Assembly (NCBI RefSeq): GCF_025151045.1
Contig: NZ_CP102285.1
Span: 1,364,001 to 1,428,000, forward strand
Source: Parabacteroides johnsonii DSM 18315
GTDB taxonomy: Bacteria; Bacteroidota; Bacteroidia; Bacteroidales; Tannerellaceae
Length of the DNA: 64,000 nt
Direction: 5' to 3'
In this document: positions 4,137 through 64,000 of the stretch, piece by piece
How the letters are laid out: every line of letters starts with the position of its first letter
How positions within the stretch are numbered: position 1 is the stretch's first letter
The notes under the pieces: model-generated
What the model saw: the letters and a program-made list of their open reading frames with translations, nothing else
The model's database searches: none
Told to the model about the DNA's origin: nothing
Translations under genes and position numbers: made by a program

Positions 4137-4859
4137 ATGTTTTCCTTACTTTTTCCGAAGAAGAAAGTGGTTCACACCGATTTATTGAGGGGGACGGCAG
4201 ATGTGCATTCACATCTGCTGCCCGGTGTGGACGACGGTGTGCAGAGCGTCGATGATATGCGGGCGGCTCTGAAATCGATGCAGGAGGCAGGTGTGGAACG
4301 TGTTTTCCTGACTCCCCATGTGATGGCGGACCTGCCCGACAACCGGCGCAGTTATCTGCAGGACCGTTTTGCCTGCATGAAAATGCTTGCCCCGGAAGGG
4401 ATCGAGCTGAGGCTGGTGGCTGAGTATATGCTGGATGCCGGTTTCCGTTTGCAGATGGCGGACGGATTATTGACGTATGCGGACAGGCAGGTTTTAGTCG
4501 AGACTTCCTATCTCTCGCCGCCTCCCGACTATCTGAACTTGCTTTACGAGCTGAGGTTGGAGGGCTACACGCCTGTCCTGGCTCATCCGGAGCGGTATAT
4601 GTATATGACGAAGGAGGATTATTTCCGGCTGAAGGACAAGGGTTACAAATTCCAGTTGAACCTGTTCTCCCTTGCCGGCGTATATGGCGCCCGTCCTGCC
4701 AAATATGCCGCCTACCTGATGAAGGAGGGTTTCTATGACTACGCCGGTTCCGACCTGCATCATCCTGACGACTACAAGAGAAACCTCGCCCGGCTGAAAC
4801 TATCGGGCAAAATGTTCGACGCTCTCAGGGAGGTGCTGGAGAATAACAAGGGACTATAG
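4137..4859 (+). CDS. PHP-family tyrosine-protein phosphatase (CpsB/YwqE type)
   Basis: Metal-dependent phosphatase expected to dephosphorylate the tyrosine tail of the adjacent autokinase. The PHP signature is complete: DVHSHLLPGVDDG near residues 22-34, TPHVM near 60, AHPER near 150 and SDLHHP near 204, which supply the His/Asp ligands of the metal centre. Its 240 residues match the CpsB/CapC/YwqE family. It closes the operon: kinase, 5-base gap, phosphatase. The following gene has its own promoter. Confidence 0.92.
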   Translation: MFSLLFPKKKVVHTDLLRGTADVHSHLLPGVDDGVQSVDDMRAALKSMQEAGVERVFLTPHVMADLPDNRRSYLQDRFACMKMLAPEGIELRLVAEYMLDAGFRLQMADGLLTYADRQVLVETSYLSPPPDYLNLLYELRLEGYTPVLAHPERYMYMTKEDYFRLKDKGYKFQLNLFSLAGVYGARPAKYAAYLMKEGFYDYAGSDLHHPDDYKRNLARLKLSGKMFDALREVLENNKGL

Positions 4860-4923
4860 TTTTTATTTATCGTTCCATAGATAAAACTGATGAGCTTTCT
4901 ACATACCTCTTGATAATTCTGCC

Positions 4924-4931
4924 TACCTTTG
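4924..4931 (+). promoter_or_regulatory. Bacteroidetes -7 promoter element (TACCTTTG)
   Basis: TACCTTTG matches the TAnnTTTG -7 consensus of the Bacteroidetes primary sigma factor and lies 30 bases before the ATG at 4962. This placement rules out the upstream TTG at 4929 as a start and favours 4962 for the cytochrome gene. No clear -33 TTG is present at ideal spacing. Confidence 0.6.
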
Positions 4932-4961
4932 CACTTAACAAATCTAAATAAACCAATAATT

Positions 4962-6341
4962 ATGCTTAACACTATTCTTTGTAAGAGGACGGCATTACCT
5001 TTAGGGCTGCTATCATTGGCTCTGGTTCTGCCATCGTGTGGTTCCTCCGAATACAAGAAGTATGCGGATAACCAGGCAAAACAGGTTGCTTCCATCCTTC
5101 GTGAGAACGGATGTATGCAATGTCACTCGGCTACGGCGGCGCTTCCTTTTTACGGTAATCTTCCCCTGATCGGCCCGACTGTCAAGGCGGATATGCAGGA
5201 AGGTACGCGCTATCTGGACCTGACGGCGATGTTGGAGGCCCTCGACAATGGCCAGCTCGTTTCCGAAGCCGACCTGGCGAAGGTGGAAGATGCTGCTCTC
5301 TCCGGTTCGATGCCTCCCGCCAAGTACACGCACATGCCGATGCACTGGGGGACGAATCTTAATAGCGACGAAAAGGCTGTCTTGCTTTCCTGGGCGAAGG
5401 AGGTCCGTAAGAAGAACTATTCGACACCTACCGTCGCCGAAGAATTCGCCAACGAACCTGTACAGCCGTTGATGGCTTCTATCCCGACCGATCCGGCAAA
5501 GGTGGCTTTAGGCTTCGATCTCTATCATGATACGCGTCTTTCCGGTGATAACACGATTTCGTGTGCGACCTGCCATGGGCTGGAGACTGCCGGTGTGGAC
5601 CGTAAGCAATATTCCGAAGGTATAGACGGACAGTTCGGCGGTGTGAATGCCCCGACCGTGTATAACTCGGCTTTGAATATCCTCCAGTTCTGGGACGGCC
5701 GTGCTGCCGACCTGAAGGAACAGGCTGCCGGGCCTCCTTTGAACCCGGTTGAAATGGGCAGTCACTCGTTCGACGATATTTCGGCCAAGCTGGCGGAAGA
5801 CAAGGAATTGAGCAAACGTTTCCTCGAAGTGTATCCGGAAGGGTTCAACCAGTCTACGATCACCGACGCTATCGCCGAGTTTGAAAAGACGTTGCTCACG
5901 CCGAGCCGTTTCGACAAGTATTTGATGGGCGATAAGACGGCTCTGACTGCCGAAGAGGTTGCCGGATACGAATTGTTTAAGGAGAATAAATGCGCTACCT
6001 GCCATACGGGTGTGAACTTGGGCGGACAGTCTTTCGAGTATATGGGAATCAAGAAAAGCTACTTCGATTACCGCGGAACAGGATTGACGGACGGTGACAA
6101 CGGACGTTATTCCGTTACGAAGAACGAGCAGGACCGTCATCGTTTCAAGACTCCGACCCTGCGTAACGTGATGCTTACCCCGCCGTATATGCACGACGGA
6201 TCGATCGCGACGGTCGAAGATGCTATCCGCATCATGCACCAGTTCCAGATCGGTAAGAACATTTCGGATGCGGATACCAAGAGTCTCGTGGCGTTCCTGA
6301 ACACGCTCACCGGAGAATATAAGGGCGAGCTGCTACAATAA
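4962..6341 (+). CDS. Three-haem cytochrome c peroxidase-like lipoprotein
   Basis: Periplasmic haem protein of the CCP/MauG family, which reduces hydrogen peroxide or oxidises a partner through c-type haems. The start ATG sits downstream of the promoter and opens a lipoprotein signal ending in LPSCG. There are three CxxCH motifs, near residues 51, 201 and 344. The first belongs to an N-terminal haem-binding extension (about residues 25-150) and the other two to the classic di-haem peroxidase core. MPPAKY-type and PTLRNV segments fit the family. The third haem may supply electrons to the core (inference). No neighbouring electron donor gene was seen. A second, two-haem relative lies at 31981. 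Confidence 0.9.
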   Translation: MLNTILCKRTALPLGLLSLALVLPSCGSSEYKKYADNQAKQVASILRENGCMQCHSATAALPFYGNLPLIGPTVKADMQEGTRYLDLTAMLEALDNGQLVSEADLAKVEDAALSGSMPPAKYTHMPMHWGTNLNSDEKAVLLSWAKEVRKKNYSTPTVAEEFANEPVQPLMASIPTDPAKVALGFDLYHDTRLSGDNTISCATCHGLETAGVDRKQYSEGIDGQFGGVNAPTVYNSALNILQFWDGRAADLKEQAAGPPLNPVEMGSHSFDDISAKLAEDKELSKRFLEVYPEGFNQSTITDAIAEFEKTLLTPSRFDKYLMGDKTALTAEEVAGYELFKENKCATCHTGVNLGGQSFEYMGIKKSYFDYRGTGLTDGDNGRYSVTKNEQDRHRFKTPTLRNVMLTPPYMHDGSIATVEDAIRIMHQFQIGKNISDADTKSLVAFLNTLTGEYKGELLQ

Positions 6342-53175: not shown

Positions 53176-53555
53176 GTTTCAAATTATGTGTATTTATATG
53201 ATCATTTTTCTTCGTGGACAAACTTACGGAAATATCTTCATAGTTCATATATATCGGATGAAAATAGCGTGTATTTTTATCCTTTCTGCCTCCCTTTGTA
53301 TTTGATCGTTAAGGTCAATCGTAGGGATGTATGATTGCCTGTTGTGGTATCGGTTCACCGCAAACACTGCAAATGTGTTCACTATCCTTATCTGGCCGAT
53401 ATTTTGGTTTATATGAAATAACCCCGGTTGCGTAATTGATGAAAACACCCCTTTTCTGTGAAAAGCCGATTTTTTGAAAAAATATTGATTTTCAATTATA
53501 ATCTGTTTTGATATATATTTTTCTAAATGAAAAACAAATAAAAATGCACTCAATA

Positions 53556-53587
53556 TTTGCATGATAAAAATTAATCACATATCTTTG
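53556..53587 (+). promoter_or_regulatory. Promoter of the tRNA-Lys gene
   Basis: TTTG at 53556-53559 and TATCTTTG at 53580-53587 with 20 bases between match the Bacteroidetes consensus, 30 bases upstream of the tRNA. The preceding stretch (53176-53555) contains no gene that I can support. Confidence 0.7.
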
Positions 53588-53617
53588 CACCCGCATTACA
53601 GAAGTAACGCACAGGAT

Positions 53618-53690
53618 GATTCGCTAGCTCAGCAGGTAGAGCACATCCCTTTTAAGGATGGGGTCCTGGGTTCGAACCCCAGGCGGATCA
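53618..53690 (+). tRNA. tRNA-Lys (anticodon TTT)
   Basis: Cloverleaf by eye: acceptor GATTCGC pairs with GCGGATC (one G-T pair), D-arm TAGCTCAGCAGGTAGAGCA, anticodon stem CATCC/GGATG around the loop CTTTTAA (anticodon TTT), variable loop GGGTC, T-arm CTGGG-TTCGAAC-CCCAG and discriminator A. CCA is not encoded. It lies immediately before a terminator and the integrase gene, so its 3' end is a candidate attachment site. Confidence 0.96.
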
Positions 53691-53714
53691 CTGAAACAAC
53701 AAGAAAAATCAAGC

Positions 53715-53756
53715 AAATCCCTGATAATCAGACATTATCAGGGATTTCTTTTTTCT
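53715..53756 (+). terminator. Terminator after tRNA-Lys
   Basis: A perfect 13-bp stem, AAATCCCTGATAA (53715-53727) with TTATCAGGGATTT (53735-53747), is followed by CTTTTTT. Confidence 0.85.
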
Positions 53757-53804
53757 GGCAGCTAGCAGAAAATAGCCGTTTCAAGCATATTATCGGTGGA
53801 TAAA

Positions 53805-53841
53805 TCGTGGGACTAAAATTTAGTTCAAAAAAGTCCCACGA
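53805..53841. repeat. Perfect 10-bp inverted repeat between tRNA-Lys and integrase
   Basis: TCGTGGGACT (53805-53814) and AGTCCCACGA (53832-53841) surround AAAATTTAGTTCAAAAA. It has no T-run, so a protein-binding or recombination role near the element end is more likely than termination. It marks the change to AT-rich sequence. Confidence 0.6.
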
Positions 53842-53932
53842 ATTTGCATCTTTCTCACTGATTCATAGTCTTTTGCATAGACTTACTTTGGAAGAGAATA
53901 CATAGTTTTGTAACTTTAAAAACGATGTAAAA

Positions 53933-55153
53933 ATGGCTCGAAAATCATTTTCTGTATTGTTCTTCATCAAGAAAGGCAAATTATTAAAGAACGGAGAAGC
54001 ACCCGTGTGCATGAGAATCACCGTAAACGGCTGTATGGTAGATATTTCTATCAAAAGAAGTTGTCCCGTAAACCTATGGAATCAGGCAAAAGAGAATTCA
54101 AAAGGCAAAGACCGCATGTCGGTGGAACTGAACCACTACTTAGAAATCACACGTTCCCACGTACACCAAATTTATAGAGAACTGGAAACTTCCGGTAAGG
54201 TTATCACTGTTGATCTTGTTAGAAAACTGTATTATGGTGTGGACGAAGATAACAAAACGCTATTGCAGGTATTCAGAGAGCATAATGAACAAAGCCGTAA
54301 GCTGATTGGAAAAGACTTTGTAAGTAAGACCGTCCAGCGATATGAAACCACTACCCGATATTTAGAAGAATTCATTAAGAAAGAATATCAATTACCGGAT
54401 ATTGCCCTGAATAACTTGGAAGCCAACTTCATTTCTAAGTTCGATGCTTTTTTGAAGATTGAAAAAGGTTGTGCGCAGAACTCCGCTATCACCCGATTGA
54501 AAAATTTGAAGAAGATTATCCGCATTGCTTTGGAAAACGACTGGATAAAGAAAGATCCGTTTGCTTACTATCGCTTCAAACTGGAAGAAACAGATCCTGA
54601 ATTTCTGACAATGGACGAGATTAAAATCATTCTCGCTAAAGAGTTCACAATTAAACGAGTAGAACAGGTACGTGACGTTTTTGTCTTTTGCATTTTTACT
54701 GGCTTGGCGTTCAGCGATGTGAAAGATTTATCACCCGAACACTTGGTAAAAGACAATAAAGGAGAACTTTGGATAAGGAAGAACCGCCAAAAGACCAAAA
54801 TCATGTGTAACATTCCTGTGTTACCTGTGGCAGCTTCCATACTTGATAAATATAAGGATGTGGCAGAGTGTACCGGAAAACTTTTGCCTGTATTAAGCAA
54901 TCAACGCATGAACAGTTATTTGAAGGAAATTGCCGATGTGTGCGGAATTCATAAAAATCTTAGTACACATACCGCCCGTCATAGCTACGCCACAAGCATT
55001 TGCCTTGCAAATGGCGTGAGTATAGAGAATGTTGCTAAGATGTTAGGTCATGCAGATACAAGCGTAACAAAACACTATGCAAGGGTATTGGATCAGAATA
55101 TTTTCAAGGATATGCAAAAAGTAAATAGCTGTTTATCAGAATTAACTATATAA
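53933..55153 (+). CDS. CTnDOT-type tyrosine recombinase (integrase)
   Basis: Site-specific integrase of 406 residues. N-terminal arm-binding domain (about 1-95), core-binding SAM-like domain (about 105-205) and catalytic domain (about 220-400). Catalytic residues: the first box reads FTGLAFSDV, so the usual Arg is replaced, as in IntDOT-like enzymes of Bacteroidetes elements; Lys in KTKIMCN near 284; H-x-x-R in HTARHSYAT near 342-350; and LGHADTSVTKHYARV near 365-379 with the nucleophile Tyr. It would catalyse integration and excision of the element at the tRNA-Lys end. Directly followed by a terminator. Confidence 0.93.
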   Translation: MARKSFSVLFFIKKGKLLKNGEAPVCMRITVNGCMVDISIKRSCPVNLWNQAKENSKGKDRMSVELNHYLEITRSHVHQIYRELETSGKVITVDLVRKLYYGVDEDNKTLLQVFREHNEQSRKLIGKDFVSKTVQRYETTTRYLEEFIKKEYQLPDIALNNLEANFISKFDAFLKIEKGCAQNSAITRLKNLKKIIRIALENDWIKKDPFAYYRFKLEETDPEFLTMDEIKIILAKEFTIKRVEQVRDVFVFCIFTGLAFSDVKDLSPEHLVKDNKGELWIRKNRQKTKIMCNIPVLPVAASILDKYKDVAECTGKLLPVLSNQRMNSYLKEIADVCGIHKNLSTHTARHSYATSICLANGVSIENVAKMLGHADTSVTKHYARVLDQNIFKDMQKVNSCLSELTI

Positions 55154-58179: not shown

Positions 58180-58821
58180 ATGTCAGATTGGGATTTAACT
58201 GAAAAACGTATATATAAATTGCTAAGACATCCATACCAATTAGATAAGTCTGTTGTTGAAGATATGGCTTCTGCTTATTTGGAATTTGTAGAGGAGCTCT
58301 TTGATTACCTGAATAGAATAGGTGACAATAAAATACGAATTAGACAGCTTAATATGAGTTATATTGACTTTGGAACACTTAAAGCGTTGGAAGAATCATG
58401 TCCCACAGAAAACAGTAAGTTGAAATTGGTTTTTCTGGATAAGTTGTTATCGTTGATAAATATGGAACAGGAACTAATTTATCGACAGATGGAGTATCCT
58501 AAATTTTTTATCAATATTGAATCTGAATGGAAATCACCATTTTATCTAAATAATGAAGTAATAAAACTCGTAGATATGATGGAGCTAGTTTGTGGTATTT
58601 TCTATATATCGAATGGTGTTATTCGCATAGATCATAAGGAAATCTTTCTTAGCGATGTAGCTCGTATCTTTGAAAAGATGTTTAATATAAATTTTGGTGA
58701 TATTTATAAGAAAGAAAGTGCAGTAATCAAACGAAAGCCAATGAAAATAACTGAATTTCTCGATAGGTTGAAAGCTGTCATTATCCAGAAGAGTAAAGAT
58801 GAAGGTTACTATCATTCATAA
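58180..58821 (+). CDS. RteC-like regulatory protein
   Basis: 213 residues. The C-terminal part (VIKLVDMMELVCGIFYISNGVIRIDHKEIFLSDVARIFEKMFNINFGDIYKKESAVIKRKPMKITEFLDRLKAVIIQK) matches the RteC C-terminal region in layout, as recalled from CTnDOT-type elements: LVEL-IYAL ... G ... I ... FE-FN-LG ... R ... FL--L---L. RteC activates the excision operon of CTnDOT. It begins 31 bases after the SRPBCC gene. The family assignment is moderate; the N-terminal half is unassigned. Confidence 0.65.
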   Translation: MSDWDLTEKRIYKLLRHPYQLDKSVVEDMASAYLEFVEELFDYLNRIGDNKIRIRQLNMSYIDFGTLKALEESCPTENSKLKLVFLDKLLSLINMEQELIYRQMEYPKFFINIESEWKSPFYLNNEVIKLVDMMELVCGIFYISNGVIRIDHKEIFLSDVARIFEKMFNINFGDIYKKESAVIKRKPMKITEFLDRLKAVIIQKSKDEGYYHS

Positions 58822-58974: not shown

Positions 58975-59307
58975 ATGTATATAGACAACGAAAACTTCGA
59001 GAGGTGGATGGAGAAACTATCCAAGAAACTCACTGAAATCGGACAAGACTTGAAATCACTCATCAATACTGATACGGTACTAGATGATAATGAGAAAATT
59101 CTCGATAATCAAGATTTAGCTTTTCTTTTGAAAGTATCTTTCCGAACTCTTCAACGCTACAGAGTAAATAAACAACTTCCTTATTTCACTATCGGAAGGA
59201 AAACCTATTATCGGGCTGTAGATATTCGAGCTTTTGTTCGTGAACGTGCTGATTCTCAAACCTACAAACAGTTTGAAAAAGCCAATCAGTTGGCTAATCA
59301 ACCTTGA
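58975..59307 (+). CDS. Helix-turn-helix protein (HTH_17 type)
   Basis: 110 residues. After a helical N-terminus, the winged helix NQDLAFLLKVSFRTLQRYRVNKQLPYFTIGRKTYYRAVDIRAFVRERA (about 46-92) matches the excisionase-like proteins at 55438 and 56073. It lies just before the putative transfer origin and mobilization genes, so it may bind there or control them. Confidence 0.85.
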   Translation: MYIDNENFERWMEKLSKKLTEIGQDLKSLINTDTVLDDNEKILDNQDLAFLLKVSFRTLQRYRVNKQLPYFTIGRKTYYRAVDIRAFVRERADSQTYKQFEKANQLANQP

Positions 59308-59591: not shown

Positions 59592-60176
59592 ATGCCAAAC
59601 AGCAATCGAAAAACGATATTTACCACCATTTCCATAGACAAGGAAACGGCAGCTTTGGTAGAGAAGATATGCAAACGCTTTTCACTGAAAAAGAGTGAAG
59701 TTGTAAAGTTGGCGTTCGGGTATATAGATAAGGCACATATCAACCCATCCGAAGTCCCTGAATCCGTAAAATCAGAACTGGCGAAAATAAATAAGAGACA
59801 GGATGATATTATCCGGTTCATCCGTCACTATGAGGAAGAACAACTGAATCCCATGATACGGGTAACAAATTCTATCGCTTTGCGCTTCGATACTATCAGC
59901 AAAACTTTGGAAACTCTTATACTCTCTCAACTGGAAGCCAGTCAGGAAAAACAAACAGCCGTGCTTAAAAAGTTAAGTGAACAATTCTGTAATCATGCAG
60001 ATGTGATAAACAACCAGTCGAAACAGATTAATGCACTTTACCAGATACACCAACGGGATTATAAAAAGCTACTTCAACTGATACAACTCCATTCGGAACT
60101 GTCCGCTTGTGGTGTGATGGATAGCAAAAGGAAAGAAAACCTGAAAGCTGAAATCAGCAATCTGATAAATACATAA
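59592..60176 (+). CDS. BfmA/BtgA-family mobilization accessory protein
   Basis: 194 residues. N-terminal ribbon-helix-helix-like DNA-binding segment (TTISIDKETAALVEKICKRFSLKKSEVVKLAFGYI, about 11-45) and a long helical region with coiled-coil character (about 60-165). The family binds oriT next to the relaxase and helps to form the relaxosome. It precedes the relaxase by 4 bases, the usual order btgA-btgB. Confidence 0.88.
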   Translation: MPNSNRKTIFTTISIDKETAALVEKICKRFSLKKSEVVKLAFGYIDKAHINPSEVPESVKSELAKINKRQDDIIRFIRHYEEEQLNPMIRVTNSIALRFDTISKTLETLILSQLEASQEKQTAVLKKLSEQFCNHADVINNQSKQINALYQIHQRDYKKLLQLIQLHSELSACGVMDSKRKENLKAEISNLINT

Positions 60177-60180
60177 GATT

Positions 60181-61089
60181 ATGCACATAGGCTTTGCTCC
60201 ACCATCAAACGGAACGTATAATAATGCAGGAAGTAGCCGACAGCTAGCTAATTACCTTGAACATGAAGATTTAGAACGAATGGAAAAGAGAATCTATACC
60301 GAAGGCTTTTTCGATCTGACAGATGATAACATCTATAAATCAAAGGTCATAAAAGATATAGATTCCAATATCGGGCAACTATTGAAAACAGATGCTAAGT
60401 TTTATGCTATTCATGTCAGCCCATCAGAAAAAGAACTCCGAGCAATGGGTTATACAGAACAGGAGCAAGCCGAAGCCATGAAACGCTATATCCGTGAAGT
60501 GTTTATACCTGAATATGCCAAGAACTTCAACAAAGGGCTATCCGCTTTTGATATAAAATTTTATGGTAAGATTCATTTTGGTCGTAACCATTCAGATAGT
60601 GACTTAAATATGCACTGCCATTTGATAGTGAGCCGGAAAGACCAGTCTAATAAAAAGAAGTTATCACCTCTCACCAACCACAAGAACACCAAGAAAGGGA
60701 CGGTAACAGGCGGTTTTGAACGTGTACAATTGTTCCGAGAAGCAGAACAAGGCTTTGATAAGCTATTCTGCTACAACCGCCAATTATCAGAATCCTTTGA
60801 GTATGCTAATACGATGAAAAACAGTTCTATCACAGAACAACTTGAATTACAAGAACAAAACTTTACTTGCGAAAAGAAAAAGGAAATATTCCAATCCAGT
60901 GAAAAAGAAAACATGATTTCTTGCAATTTTAATATTAAGGCAGATGATAAACACTCTTACAATCAAAAAAATAGTACTGGTGATGATTCTCTGTTATTTA
61001 TCTTTTCATTTAGAGATGAAAATAATTACGATGCAACATTGGCTGAGAAATTACACGTACAGAAATACAAAAAGAAGCAGAAGAGATGA
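60181..61089 (+). CDS. BtgB/DUF5712-family mobilization relaxase
   Basis: 302 residues. The start MHIGFAPPSNGTYNNAGSSRQLANYLEHED and FYAIHVSPSEKELRAM near 78-93 match the DUF5712/BtgB family. A relaxase-like metal motif, IHFGRNHSDSDLNMHCHLIVSR (about 132-153), contains the clustered histidines. A candidate nucleophile tyrosine is in the first 40 residues (NNAGSSRQLANYL). It should nick oriT and pilot the strand through a helper conjugation apparatus; no conjugation (tra) genes are visible in the window. The C-terminus is basic and poorly conserved. Confidence 0.88.
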   Translation: MHIGFAPPSNGTYNNAGSSRQLANYLEHEDLERMEKRIYTEGFFDLTDDNIYKSKVIKDIDSNIGQLLKTDAKFYAIHVSPSEKELRAMGYTEQEQAEAMKRYIREVFIPEYAKNFNKGLSAFDIKFYGKIHFGRNHSDSDLNMHCHLIVSRKDQSNKKKLSPLTNHKNTKKGTVTGGFERVQLFREAEQGFDKLFCYNRQLSESFEYANTMKNSSITEQLELQEQNFTCEKKKEIFQSSEKENMISCNFNIKADDKHSYNQKNSTGDDSLLFIFSFRDENNYDATLAEKLHVQKYKKKQKR

Positions 61090-61164
61090 TTGTTGTAATC
61101 CTCAAAAACTATATTTTAATTTGTAGTTTCATTATCAATAACCTAAATTTGTTAATAAAATGTT

Positions 61165-61193
61165 TTGCAAGCAAAGAGAATAACGTATCTTTG
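61165..61193 (+). promoter_or_regulatory. Promoter of the NACHT - RelA/SpoT gene pair
   Basis: TTG at 61165-61167 (within TTTTG) and TATCTTTG at 61186-61193 with 18 bases between fit the Bacteroidetes consensus. It lies 28 bases before the ATG at 61221, so the cargo pair is transcribed independently of the mobilization genes. Confidence 0.7.
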
Positions 61194-61220
61194 TATGTTT
61201 CAATTTAATAACTATTGTTT

Positions 61221-63377
61221 ATGAATATAGAATTATTAGATAGTATATATGAACGTTATGGCTATGAGGTGAAGAAATCACACGTAGGAGTACGCGTTTA
61301 TATATTTACCAAAAGCATATACTCAGGTGCTGAAATAATTGTAACAGATTCCCAAAGTTGCAATATTGAACAACTAAGGAAGGAATATAGTGATAGCGGA
61401 TATGCTGTAAAAGTTAGACAATATAAATCTATTGAAGAAGCCGAAGTTATTCTATTTAAAGAGTTTTTTAAAGTAGACGCTGTTATTCAAAATCTAAAGA
61501 GAAGATATGAGGACTTTATCCGTAGAGTTATGGATAAGCTTTCGGATAGTGCAACCTATGAGTATATAAAATGTCCATATGAAATTTCAAAATATCAGTC
61601 TGAAAATGAAAATTTCGAGAACACATCTGTGAAATTTTATCAAGAGGGATTAGTAGAAAGGCTCTCTGACCTATTAGATTCTCATCAAGGTCCCTTATTT
61701 GTTATACTAGAAGCAGCCGCCGGTTATGGAAAAACTTGTACCGCCTATGAATTACTTAGTCGTTTTTTAAAAATAAGTAATACAAAAATTCCTTTCTTTA
61801 CAGAATTGTCTAGAGATAGAAAAGCAACCATTTTTAGCCATATTTTAAGAAAGGAAATTGAAGAGCAATTTGCGAATAGAGTTGATTCATCTGTTGTTAT
61901 TGGAGAAATAAAAAAAGGAAGAATACCTTTAATTATAGATGGGTTTGATGAATTAATATCCAAAGATTTTTCATTCAATACGAGTGAATTTCAGCAGGTA
62001 GAAAGTATGCTTTCAACAGTTGTTGATCTCCTATCGGATAATGCAAAAATTGTAATAACATCAAGAAAAACTGCAATTTTCAACAGTGAAGATTTTTACA
62101 ATTGGATGTCAAATAGAAATATTGATTATACAATGGCAAAAATCACTATTTCTGAACCATGTATTGAAAATTGGCTAAATAAAGAGCAGCTAGATGTTAT
62201 TAATAGAGCGAATTTACCATTAGAAACATTTGCAAATCCTGTTCTATTAGCATTTTTGAAATATTCATCAATGGAAGAGTTGGAAAAAATGGTATTAAAA
62301 GATAATACTATAATCAACGAGTATTTAGACTTCTTATTGAAACGTGAACAAACAAGACAAGGACTATTAATAGAACCTGAAACACAATTAAGAATATTCC
62401 GAAAATTAGTTCGCCTATTTACAGAACTAGATATTAAAACGGCATCAAAAGATGATATCAAAGAATTAATTTTAGATTATAATAAAAAAATACTCAGTAA
62501 AACATTAGAAAAATATCTTCCATCAGAAAGACCACGTATTGAACAATTAGCAGATACTCTATCAAATCATGCATTTTTAGATAAAAAAGATAATAAGACT
62601 ATTGGATTTGTAAATGAATTCATACTCGGTACATTGATTGCTCAAAATTTAGTTATGGGTAAATATATGGAACATAATTCTAAATTTTATAAAGATCTGG
62701 ACATAATGTTTGCAAACTTAGCATTTCATGCATATAGGGTGCAGACAGATAGTGAAAAACATAAATTATGGGAAGTATTCACTTCATTACCATTTAATTA
62801 TGATCCACTATTTTATCTTCAAATAGATGTTGAGTTAGAAAAATCTCTAAACAGAAAGTACAAGCAACTCGCTATAGACAACTATTGTATGTCTAATATT
62901 TCATTTATTGGAATAGATAGATTTGAGAATACAGTTTTTACTAATTGTGCTTTTAAGAGTTGTGAATTTAATACTAATTCTTTTCGAAACTGTTCCTTTG
63001 TGAAATGCAAATTTTATGATTGCATTGTGCATAATAAAAAAGAAAACAATAATTATATTGGTTTCTTTACATCTACAGATAATAATGGTTTTATTGAAAA
63101 GATGACTATCAGCGACGATGAGATTTTAGAGAATGAGATAGAAGAAATAAGTTCAGAAAAGCTTATTCTTGATAAATTTTTTAATCAGGGATCATTACGG
63201 CCAAGATATAGGCAATTTTCGCAGCTTAACTCAGAATTATCAGATATGGGAAGTAGAGAATTATCAAAACAACTACACTCTCTTGAAGTAAAAAATTATA
63301 TTGCGATGAATGGAAATCTTTGTCATCTTACGAAAGAAGGTATAATCTATTATAACGAACAATACAGAAAATCATGA
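61221..63377 (+). CDS. NACHT-type NTPase with pentapeptide-repeat segment
   Basis: A 718-residue STAND-class ATPase. N-terminal alpha/beta region (about 1-75; KKSHVGVRVYIFTK ... SIEEAEVILFKEFF) of unrecognised fold. NACHT domain: Walker A LEAAAGYGKT (163-172), Walker B IPLIIDGFDEL (about 235-245) and sensor IVITSRK (about 277-283). A helical region follows (about 320-550), then a short pentapeptide-like stretch (about 558-603; SFIGIDRFENTVF, CEFNTNSF, CSFVKCKF). The end (about 650-718) looks like a winged helix. Such NTPases act as switch proteins in anti-phage defence and in other signalling. Its stop overlaps the start of the next gene (ATGA). The region is strongly AT-rich. No effector nuclease or TIR domain is visible. 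Confidence 0.82.
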   Translation: MNIELLDSIYERYGYEVKKSHVGVRVYIFTKSIYSGAEIIVTDSQSCNIEQLRKEYSDSGYAVKVRQYKSIEEAEVILFKEFFKVDAVIQNLKRRYEDFIRRVMDKLSDSATYEYIKCPYEISKYQSENENFENTSVKFYQEGLVERLSDLLDSHQGPLFVILEAAAGYGKTCTAYELLSRFLKISNTKIPFFTELSRDRKATIFSHILRKEIEEQFANRVDSSVVIGEIKKGRIPLIIDGFDELISKDFSFNTSEFQQVESMLSTVVDLLSDNAKIVITSRKTAIFNSEDFYNWMSNRNIDYTMAKITISEPCIENWLNKEQLDVINRANLPLETFANPVLLAFLKYSSMEELEKMVLKDNTIINEYLDFLLKREQTRQGLLIEPETQLRIFRKLVRLFTELDIKTASKDDIKELILDYNKKILSKTLEKYLPSERPRIEQLADTLSNHAFLDKKDNKTIGFVNEFILGTLIAQNLVMGKYMEHNSKFYKDLDIMFANLAFHAYRVQTDSEKHKLWEVFTSLPFNYDPLFYLQIDVELEKSLNRKYKQLAIDNYCMSNISFIGIDRFENTVFTNCAFKSCEFNTNSFRNCSFVKCKFYDCIVHNKKENNNYIGFFTSTDNNGFIEKMTISDDEILENEIEEISSEKLILDKFFNQGSLRPRYRQFSQLNSELSDMGSRELSKQLHSLEVKNYIAMNGNLCHLTKEGIIYYNEQYRKS

Positions 63378-64000
63378 TAGGACTTGAATTAATTAAAAAC
63401 AATATAGAGCAAGATATACAAAAGCAGTTAAATAGAATAGGAATCTTATATAGATTACATTCTCGAATCAAAACGGCAGATTCAATAACTGAAAAGAATG
63501 AACGTAACCACTACTCTACATCAACAAAATTGATGCAAGATATTATAGGGTTTAGAGTAATAACTTATTTTGAAGACGATGTTAAATTAGTAGCAGATTA
63601 TTTCTCTAACCATTATATCAAAGATAATCTACAATATGATGAGCCTAAAGTTAATGAGTTTAATCCTTTGCGTAAGAATCTTGTTTGCAGATTGAATGGA
63701 GATAATCTACAGATTTTTAATGAAGTAAAAAGCAGACATGAAGAATTAAACTTTATAGATGCCACTTTTGAGATACAATTCAGAACTACTTTATCTGAAG
63801 GATGGCATGAAGTTGAGCACAATATGCGCTACAAATGTAAAAAAGAATGGAATGAATTAGAACAGGAATCCAGAGCCTTGAATGGGATATATGCAACTTT
63901 AGAAACAAGTGATTATACTTTAAGAAACCTATTTAATGACATATCATACAAACAGTATAAAGCACATAATTATAGCGGAATGATTAGAAATAAATTTAGA
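63374..64000 (+). CDS. RelA/SpoT-fold nucleotidyltransferase (3' end outside the window)
   Basis: The frame starts at the ATG overlapping the NACHT stop and runs open to the window edge (209 residues so far). Pyrophosphokinase motifs are recognisable: the ATP site R31-x-K33-xxx-S37-xxx-K41 (RIKTADSITEK), the metal Asp in D56IIGFR61, and E133-x-Q135-x-R137-T (FEIQFRTT) followed by W144-EVEH-x3-YK. The G-loop that normally reads PKPNGYQSLH reads PKVNEFNPLR (91-100): the stacking Tyr becomes Phe and the His becomes Arg. No HD hydrolase domain precedes it. It could make (p)ppGpp-like signals, modify RNA like toxic small alarmone synthetases, or be a degenerate sensor. Confidence 0.82.
   Translation, partial: MIGLELIKNNIEQDIQKQLNRIGILYRLHSRIKTADSITEKNERNHYSTSTKLMQDIIGFRVITYFEDDVKLVADYFSNHYIKDNLQYDEPKVNEFNPLRKNLVCRLNGDNLQIFNEVKSRHEELNFIDATFEIQFRTTLSEGWHEVEHNMRYKCKKEWNELEQESRALNGIYATLETSDYTLRNLFNDISYKQYKAHNYSGMIRNKFR

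Follow-up and report, generated by a model that had tools for sequence, protein, structure and literature searches.

A NACHT ATPase gene paired with a RelA/SpoT-fold enzyme gene on a mobilizable island of Parabacteroides johnsonii: a putative NLR-like system with a separately encoded effector

In CARD-NLR systems, the sensor ATPase and the effector reside in separate chains, and the effectors are proteases or gasdermins. A bicistronic toxSAS module, aTfaRel2/faRel2, is described in PMC10565793, and Kaur et al. (2020; PMC7159879) mention the RelA nucleotidyltransferase among the less common domains that generate nucleotides in conflict systems of a different type. The present analysis deals with two adjacent genes of Parabacteroides johnsonii DSM 18315, coding for a NACHT (STAND) ATPase and a RelA/SpoT-fold, pyrophosphokinase-like enzyme, which are located at the right edge of a stretch of 64,000 nucleotides (bases 1364001-1428000 of the 4.75-Mb single-contig genome), referred to here as the window. 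As judged from sequence, it is somewhat more probable than all other outcomes taken together that the pair represents a two-gene abortive-infection system composed of an NLR-like sensor and a separate RelA-fold effector, and from its genomic context the role looks like one in defence. The observations behind this reading are a conserved operon, the co-inheritance of its genes, an intact ATPase site together with intact donor-site and catalytic residues, a rewritten acceptor motif, and a synthetase fold.

The NACHT gene (61221..63377, plus strand) starts with an ATG at 61221 and codes for a protein of 718 amino acids, consisting of NA-iREase2, NACHT, and pentapeptide-like segments and a C-terminal tail; an alternative TTG frame from 61215 would lengthen it by two residues. 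The RelA-type gene (63374..64258, plus strand; L002:3374-4258) starts with the ATG at 63374, and only the first 209 codons of its product (63374..64000) are inside the window. The next 36 kb were added and supplied the 3' end missing from an earlier note on this DNA: the stop codon ends at 64258, yielding a protein of 294 amino acids. The ATGA overlap of the two genes recorded in that note is confirmed at 63374..63377 (plus strand), and the promoter it assigned to the pair agrees with two promoter-like sites of the type TTTG-N-TANNTTTG, the Bacteroidetes promoter consensus, at 61164..61193 (plus strand, separated by 27 bp from the NACHT start codon) and at 61120-61151. The pattern TTTGN{18,23}TANNTTTG occurs five times in the 64 kb, compared to an expected value of 1.14 (one of 100 shuffles reached five), and two of the five matches are those upstream of the pair.

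The enzyme is recognized by PF04607 (E 2e-14). Among 87 aligned relatives, the donor-site residues R31, K33, S37, and K41 are conserved in 86/86, one gap aside, and D56, E133, Q135, and R137 in all 87. D56 and E133, previously picked out as residues to mutate, occupy the positions of the catalytic acids in the alignment with the synthetases. The acceptor tyrosine of the G-loop is found in none of the 87 (P in 67, A in 19, V in one), while it is kept in 11 of the 11 other RelA-like proteins used for comparison (of 13 fetched). The canonical Ser and His of this loop are likewise replaced in every relative, the former by Arg in 79, and the replacement motif Fx[P/A]xRxN is itself conserved (F and N in 87/87, R in 79/87). 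As read from the alignment, the acceptor pocket is rewritten and the catalytic residues are kept. Since none of the 87 aligned sequences keeps the tyrosine that binds the acceptor, the CapRel-like tRNA chemistry brought up beforehand is less certain than it was made to appear. The modelled fold of a relative (L047) is that of a synthetase (SYNTH), with CapRel, Tas1, and FaRel2 recovered by fold, and the C-terminus carries about 100 extra helical residues from about residue 200. RelA-like proteins of another group, 324-406 amino acids long and found in 11 genomes of the phylum (L029-L038 and L040), retain the canonical loop Y, S, and H, and no NACHT relative was detected in the fetched stretches of this group. 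A distant relative of the enzyme forms the N-terminus of a 609-amino acid protein of Lachnospira eligens (L046:5944-8168), which shows no Pfam domain behind it and whose gene is followed by one for a response regulator.

In the NACHT protein, Pfam recognizes an NA-iREase2 domain (PF22723) at residues 6-122 (E 2.8e-33, above the cut-off) and a NACHT domain at residues 161-286, which scores just below the cut-off (E 1.1e-5; 25.8 bits versus 26.7). The Walker A motif GxGKT (168-172) and the Walker B motif DGFDEL (240-245) are invariant in all 59 NACHT sequences compared, and K171, likewise picked out earlier for mutation, turns out to be the Walker A lysine kept in all of them. Since the family of the N-terminal domain is named by Pfam as an inactive restriction-endonuclease fold, no further effector enzyme is evident from the sequence of the NACHT chain. 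The pentapeptide-repeat segment proposed earlier stays under the Pfam cut-offs as a pentapeptide-like stretch (residues 568-601), while a profile of the 59 sequences does match the pentapeptide-repeat structures Qnr, McbG-like, and HalA (E 3e-6 to 8e-6); the stretch may serve as a sensor or binding part. The only match of the NACHT protein in PADLOC-DB 2.0.0 is WH_III-A (E 0.0073).

Conservation of the pair in other genomes had been set as a test by the earlier note. Searches with the single protein sampled larger groups, covering 393 genomes from the order at E 1e-5 and 395 from the phylum at E 1e-8, and returned matches in 18 and 6 genomes, respectively, including the own genome in both. Apart from this, close relatives are present only in G133 and G131, where the NACHT gene is located upstream with the same 4-base overlap (NACHT/enzyme identities of 68%/73% and 36%/43%), and the remaining matches are 23-33% identical. 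An earlier single-protein scan of genome contigs had found no relative; a later scan of 84,980 species genomes with an enzyme profile gave 163, and the best 80 of these together with eight earlier loci make up a set of 88. A closed open reading frame (ORF) for the enzyme is present in 87 of these, the match in L103 reaching the contig end. An ORF for a NACHT protein of about 700 amino acids precedes the enzyme on the same strand in 68 of the 87 loci, and this recurrence of order, strand, and spacing bears out the conservation asked for. The distance between the ORFs ranges from -61 to +17 nt in 67 loci, with -4 as the commonest value (16 loci; start codons mechanically chosen); L090 has a NACHT piece that stops 2 nt short of the enzyme. 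By label, the paired loci, many of which are metagenome bins, belong to Bacteroidota (38), Pseudomonadota (17), Bacillota (4), Myxococcota (1), Campylobacterota (1), and plasmids (4), with 3 unlabelled. Near-identical enzymes occur in L109, L111, and L113 (Pseudomonas, Undibacterium) and in L083 and L084 (a Bacillota and a Bacteroidales bin), which points to recent transfer or mis-binning.

The trees of the NACHT proteins and the enzymes agree over 64 pairs (r 0.89; reached in 0 of 2000 permutations). The two profiles each match seven viral contigs, and these are the same seven, with both genes adjacent in all of them and the NACHT gene split into two ORFs in L160. Among plasmid records, the six matched by the NACHT protein are all contained in the 19 matched by the enzyme; these six come from Pantoea, Klebsiella, and Yersinia and code for both proteins (30-36% identity for the NACHT protein, 36-42% for the enzyme), and as seen in the four plasmid loci examined, the Yersinia NACHT protein is devoid of the N-terminal part and encoded beside an IS1 element. 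In the 44 whole genomes behind enzyme loci, the NA-iREase2 domain yields exactly one match in each of 31 paired genomes, is not found in the 12 solo-enzyme genomes searched whole, and is present in the genome of L082. PF22723 matches only the window's own protein over 247 genomes of the phylum, and a blastn search with the Klebsiella pair found no homologue in 5,426 E. coli genomes, although such a DNA search would miss divergent copies.

A mobilizable island of about 10.75 kb, integrated into the 3' end of a tRNA-Lys gene (53618-53691), carries the pair as its last cargo. The left end, attL, consists of the last 14 bases of this tRNA gene (53678..53691, plus strand), which are repeated as attR at 64432-64445 (L002:4432-4445), 3' of the pair and 173 bp after the stop of the RelA-type gene; this core is the sole exact match of at least 14 bases between 53401-53950 and the fetched stretches after the pair. 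Between the repeats, all on the plus strand, are genes for a tyrosine integrase (53933..55153), an RteC-like regulator (58180..58821), a helix-turn-helix protein (HTH_17; 58975..59307), a BfmA/BtgA-like mobilization protein (59592..60176), and a MobB-type relaxase (DUF5712; 60181..61089), the last of which exceeds the Pfam cut-off for DUF5712 and stays below that of NCBIfam (150 versus 200 bits). The prediction that the pair is the cargo of a mobilizable element thus holds, with integrase, relaxase, and flanking tRNA-Lys repeats in place. The GC content falls from 0.48-0.53 at 40-52 kb to 0.28-0.38 at 54-64 kb. A search of 21 genomes, the own included, revealed an empty site at the second tRNA-Lys gene of the same genome (C1:4032640-4032370; 89% identity for the 3' part of the tRNA gene, 98% for the flank right of attR) and others in genomes of the same genus, e.g., G841:C141 (86% and 95%), with the flanks overlapping by the 14-base core. 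The island ends are supported by these uninterrupted sites, where the 3' part of the tRNA gene runs directly into the sequence found right of attR. A caveat is that the attR flank occurs once more, with an insertion sequence (C1:4026926-4027921), 4.5 kb from the second tRNA-Lys gene. With its end about 170 bp short of attR, the RelA-type gene is part of the island, and its assignment to an unrelated downstream chromosomal operon was rejected on this ground and for the conservation of the pair. Right of attR and beside the island is an ISL3-family insertion sequence (L002 about 4556-5597), of which about ten more copies exist in the genome, one of them behind the attR-flank copy at C1:4026926-4027921.

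The neighbours of the paired loci were surveyed through the immediately flanking genes of 67 loci, the window's own left out, which gave 125 proteins. Their Pfam matches (25 of 100 families shown) are headed by type I restriction-modification and include integrases (3) and AbiEii (2). A control of 125 proteins, a random draw from the 192 encoded in 20 stretches that come from 16 of these genomes, with mechanical gene calling in both sets, was scanned with PADLOC only; no PADLOC family has more than one match there, and no restriction-modification family is among the 25 of 44 families shown. Part of the paired loci is situated in a mobile and defence-gene context. In two lambdoid viral contigs (L164:5288-9020 and L162:5312-9020), a CI-like repressor gene directly precedes the pair on the same strand, at a distance of 50 bp in L164 and 26 bp in L162; this position of the pair resembles that of rexAB in lambda. 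In L164, the integrase is encoded beyond the repressor; the repressor of L162 was called by its 86% identity to that of L164. The search made showed no CI-like repressor neighbour in the other five viral contigs.

From these data, a mechanism can be sketched in which the NACHT protein would be the sensor switch, with its pentapeptide or C-terminal part as the likely sensor. An infection signal, presumably from a phage, would lead it to bind ATP and oligomerize, and the oligomer would switch on the RelA-fold enzyme, possibly by physical contact. The enzyme would then transfer pyrophosphate from ATP to an acceptor held without the G-loop tyrosine, and growth or phage production would stop. More tentatively, and with a little less than even chances, the pairs may represent a widespread NLR class with a RelA-family effector of new acceptor specificity, active only when the NACHT protein is on. 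The acceptor would be one that the classical tyrosine does not bind as guanine or adenine, and the reaction would yield either a nucleotide second messenger of a new kind or a new modification of RNA or some other macromolecule.

Several observations weigh against the abortive-infection reading. The pair is rare, with three close members among the 393 genomes of the order, and all relatives were found through their resemblance to conserved motifs, so that the counts do not represent a random sample. Its neighbours also include ordinary genes for transporters, thioredoxins, and topoisomerases (2 each), and the control had single matches to the defence-named families AbiD, mad3, and GajB-like. 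The lost G-loop tyrosine could mean another reaction or none, and there are 17 judgeable enzyme genes without a NACHT gene, some in housekeeping settings, indicating that the enzyme may have a non-defence or housekeeping role. These are what is left of 19 loci without an upstream NACHT gene after setting aside L073, which starts at a contig edge, and L082, which has IS21 genes directly upstream and its NACHT gene on a separate 4.5-kb contig. With six other RelA-like proteins as the root of the tree (support for the family branch 100/99), the paired label requires 6 changes compared to a shuffled mean of 22.1, and the solo label 5 compared to 17.5. The solo groups of Bacteroidales around L105/L118 (100/94) and L049/L054 (99/90) nest among paired ones, while a Blautia group is placed with weak support (58/96 and below) and branches first in the midpoint-rooted tree. 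Solo enzymes of the Blautia type are encoded directly upstream of the gene for ribosomal protein L13 (rplM) in both cases examined (L104:5631-7213 and L107:5941-7536), which suggests a translation-linked housekeeping role. One of the Bacteroidales solo genes (L105:3638-6882) follows genes for a SpoIIE phosphatase and a HATPase_c_2 protein, overlapping the latter by 4 bases, and L110:5494-6864 follows a HATPase_c_2 gene alone.

An arrangement as with the toxSAS antitoxins, in which the enzyme is active by default, neutralized by the upstream NACHT protein, and released upon infection, would fit a two-gene operon like aTfaRel2/faRel2 (PMC10565793), but it is unlikely in view of the 17 solo genes with their active-site residues kept, 12 of whose genomes are without NA-iREase2 anywhere, and of the two solo groups nested within paired ones. 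As intact enzymes occur without it, the NACHT protein is probably an activator rather than a required antitoxin. About equally doubtful is a stress or alarmone signal unrelated to phages, gated by the NACHT protein for the benefit of the host or the mobile element: the SpoIIE/HATPase and L13 gene neighbours of solo relatives speak for it, whereas the paired forms are found on the island, plasmids, and viral contigs, some beside restriction-modification genes and two directly after a prophage repressor gene. That the RelA-fold protein is a non-catalytic binder, its altered G-loop reflecting lost activity, would explain the replacement of Tyr, Ser, and His in 87 of 87 sequences (Ser by Arg in 79), yet it appears very improbable with donor-site and catalytic residues invariant over 87 widely divergent sequences and the replacement motif itself conserved. 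Mere neighbours with separate roles, for which nothing but the solo enzymes can be adduced, are hardly conceivable given the conserved order, spacing, and co-inheritance, and chance adjacency was rejected since the pair is conserved across loci.

If the abortive-infection reading is true, NLR-like sensing and RelA-type growth arrest, found described only apart, would be joined in a compact and widely transferred operon. The identity of the acceptor becomes a testable biochemical question in a RelA branch with a rewritten acceptor pocket and catalytic residues kept, and dozens of diverse pairs are at hand, some of them from environmental Gammaproteobacteria close to laboratory hosts. No description of a NACHT and RelA/SpoT pair was found in the literature searched, most subscription papers and supplements being outside the reach of that search. 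A layout in which a sensor ATPase works with a RelA-fold effector in a chain of its own, which the earlier note did not know as described, fits the data. Neither protein has a full-length match in PADLOC-DB 2.0.0, and neither PADLOC nor NCBIfam offers a system name for the pair (the first 209 of 294 residues of the enzyme being searched in NCBIfam). The enzyme weakly matches the PADLOC family PDC-S33, a candidate phage defence protein (E 1.4e-7; residues 9-87 against 49-126 of the 349 profile positions).

Membership in the CapRel/toxSAS group by sequence was rejected, because a PDB profile search (E<=1) gave only GTP pyrophosphokinase or long Rel chains. CapRel contains a fused sensor/antitoxin domain of its own and needs Y155 of the G-loop, whereas the present enzyme has a separate NACHT partner and no such tyrosine. 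With the toxSAS enzymes FaRel2, PhRel2, and FaRel it shares the occurrence of a RelA-fold enzyme in a two-gene operon and, with FaRel2 as the reference, the donor-site pattern R-x-K, S, K. The toxSAS modules have small antitoxins, such as pZFD or Tis1, and a conserved Tyr contacting the acceptor base; the neighbour seen here in 68 of 87 loci is a NACHT protein of about 700 amino acids. The small alarmone synthetases RelQ and RelP contain SGYRSYH (FGYxSxH elsewhere) in place of Fx[P/A]xRxN, and the present enzyme adds the helical C-terminal residues and the NACHT partner. The STAND/NACHT ATPase core is common to the bNACHT anti-phage proteins, and the endonuclease-fold N-terminal domain recalls the PD-(D/E)XK effectors of bNACHT25/32; here, however, the N-terminal domain comes from a family whose name marks it as inactive, and a separate RelA-type protein is the likely effector. 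The separate-chain layout is like that of the CARD-NLR systems, from which the pair differs in having a RelA-type effector rather than a protease or gasdermin. The pair should thus be regarded as a putative bacterial NLR whose effector, encoded by a gene of its own, belongs to a new class.
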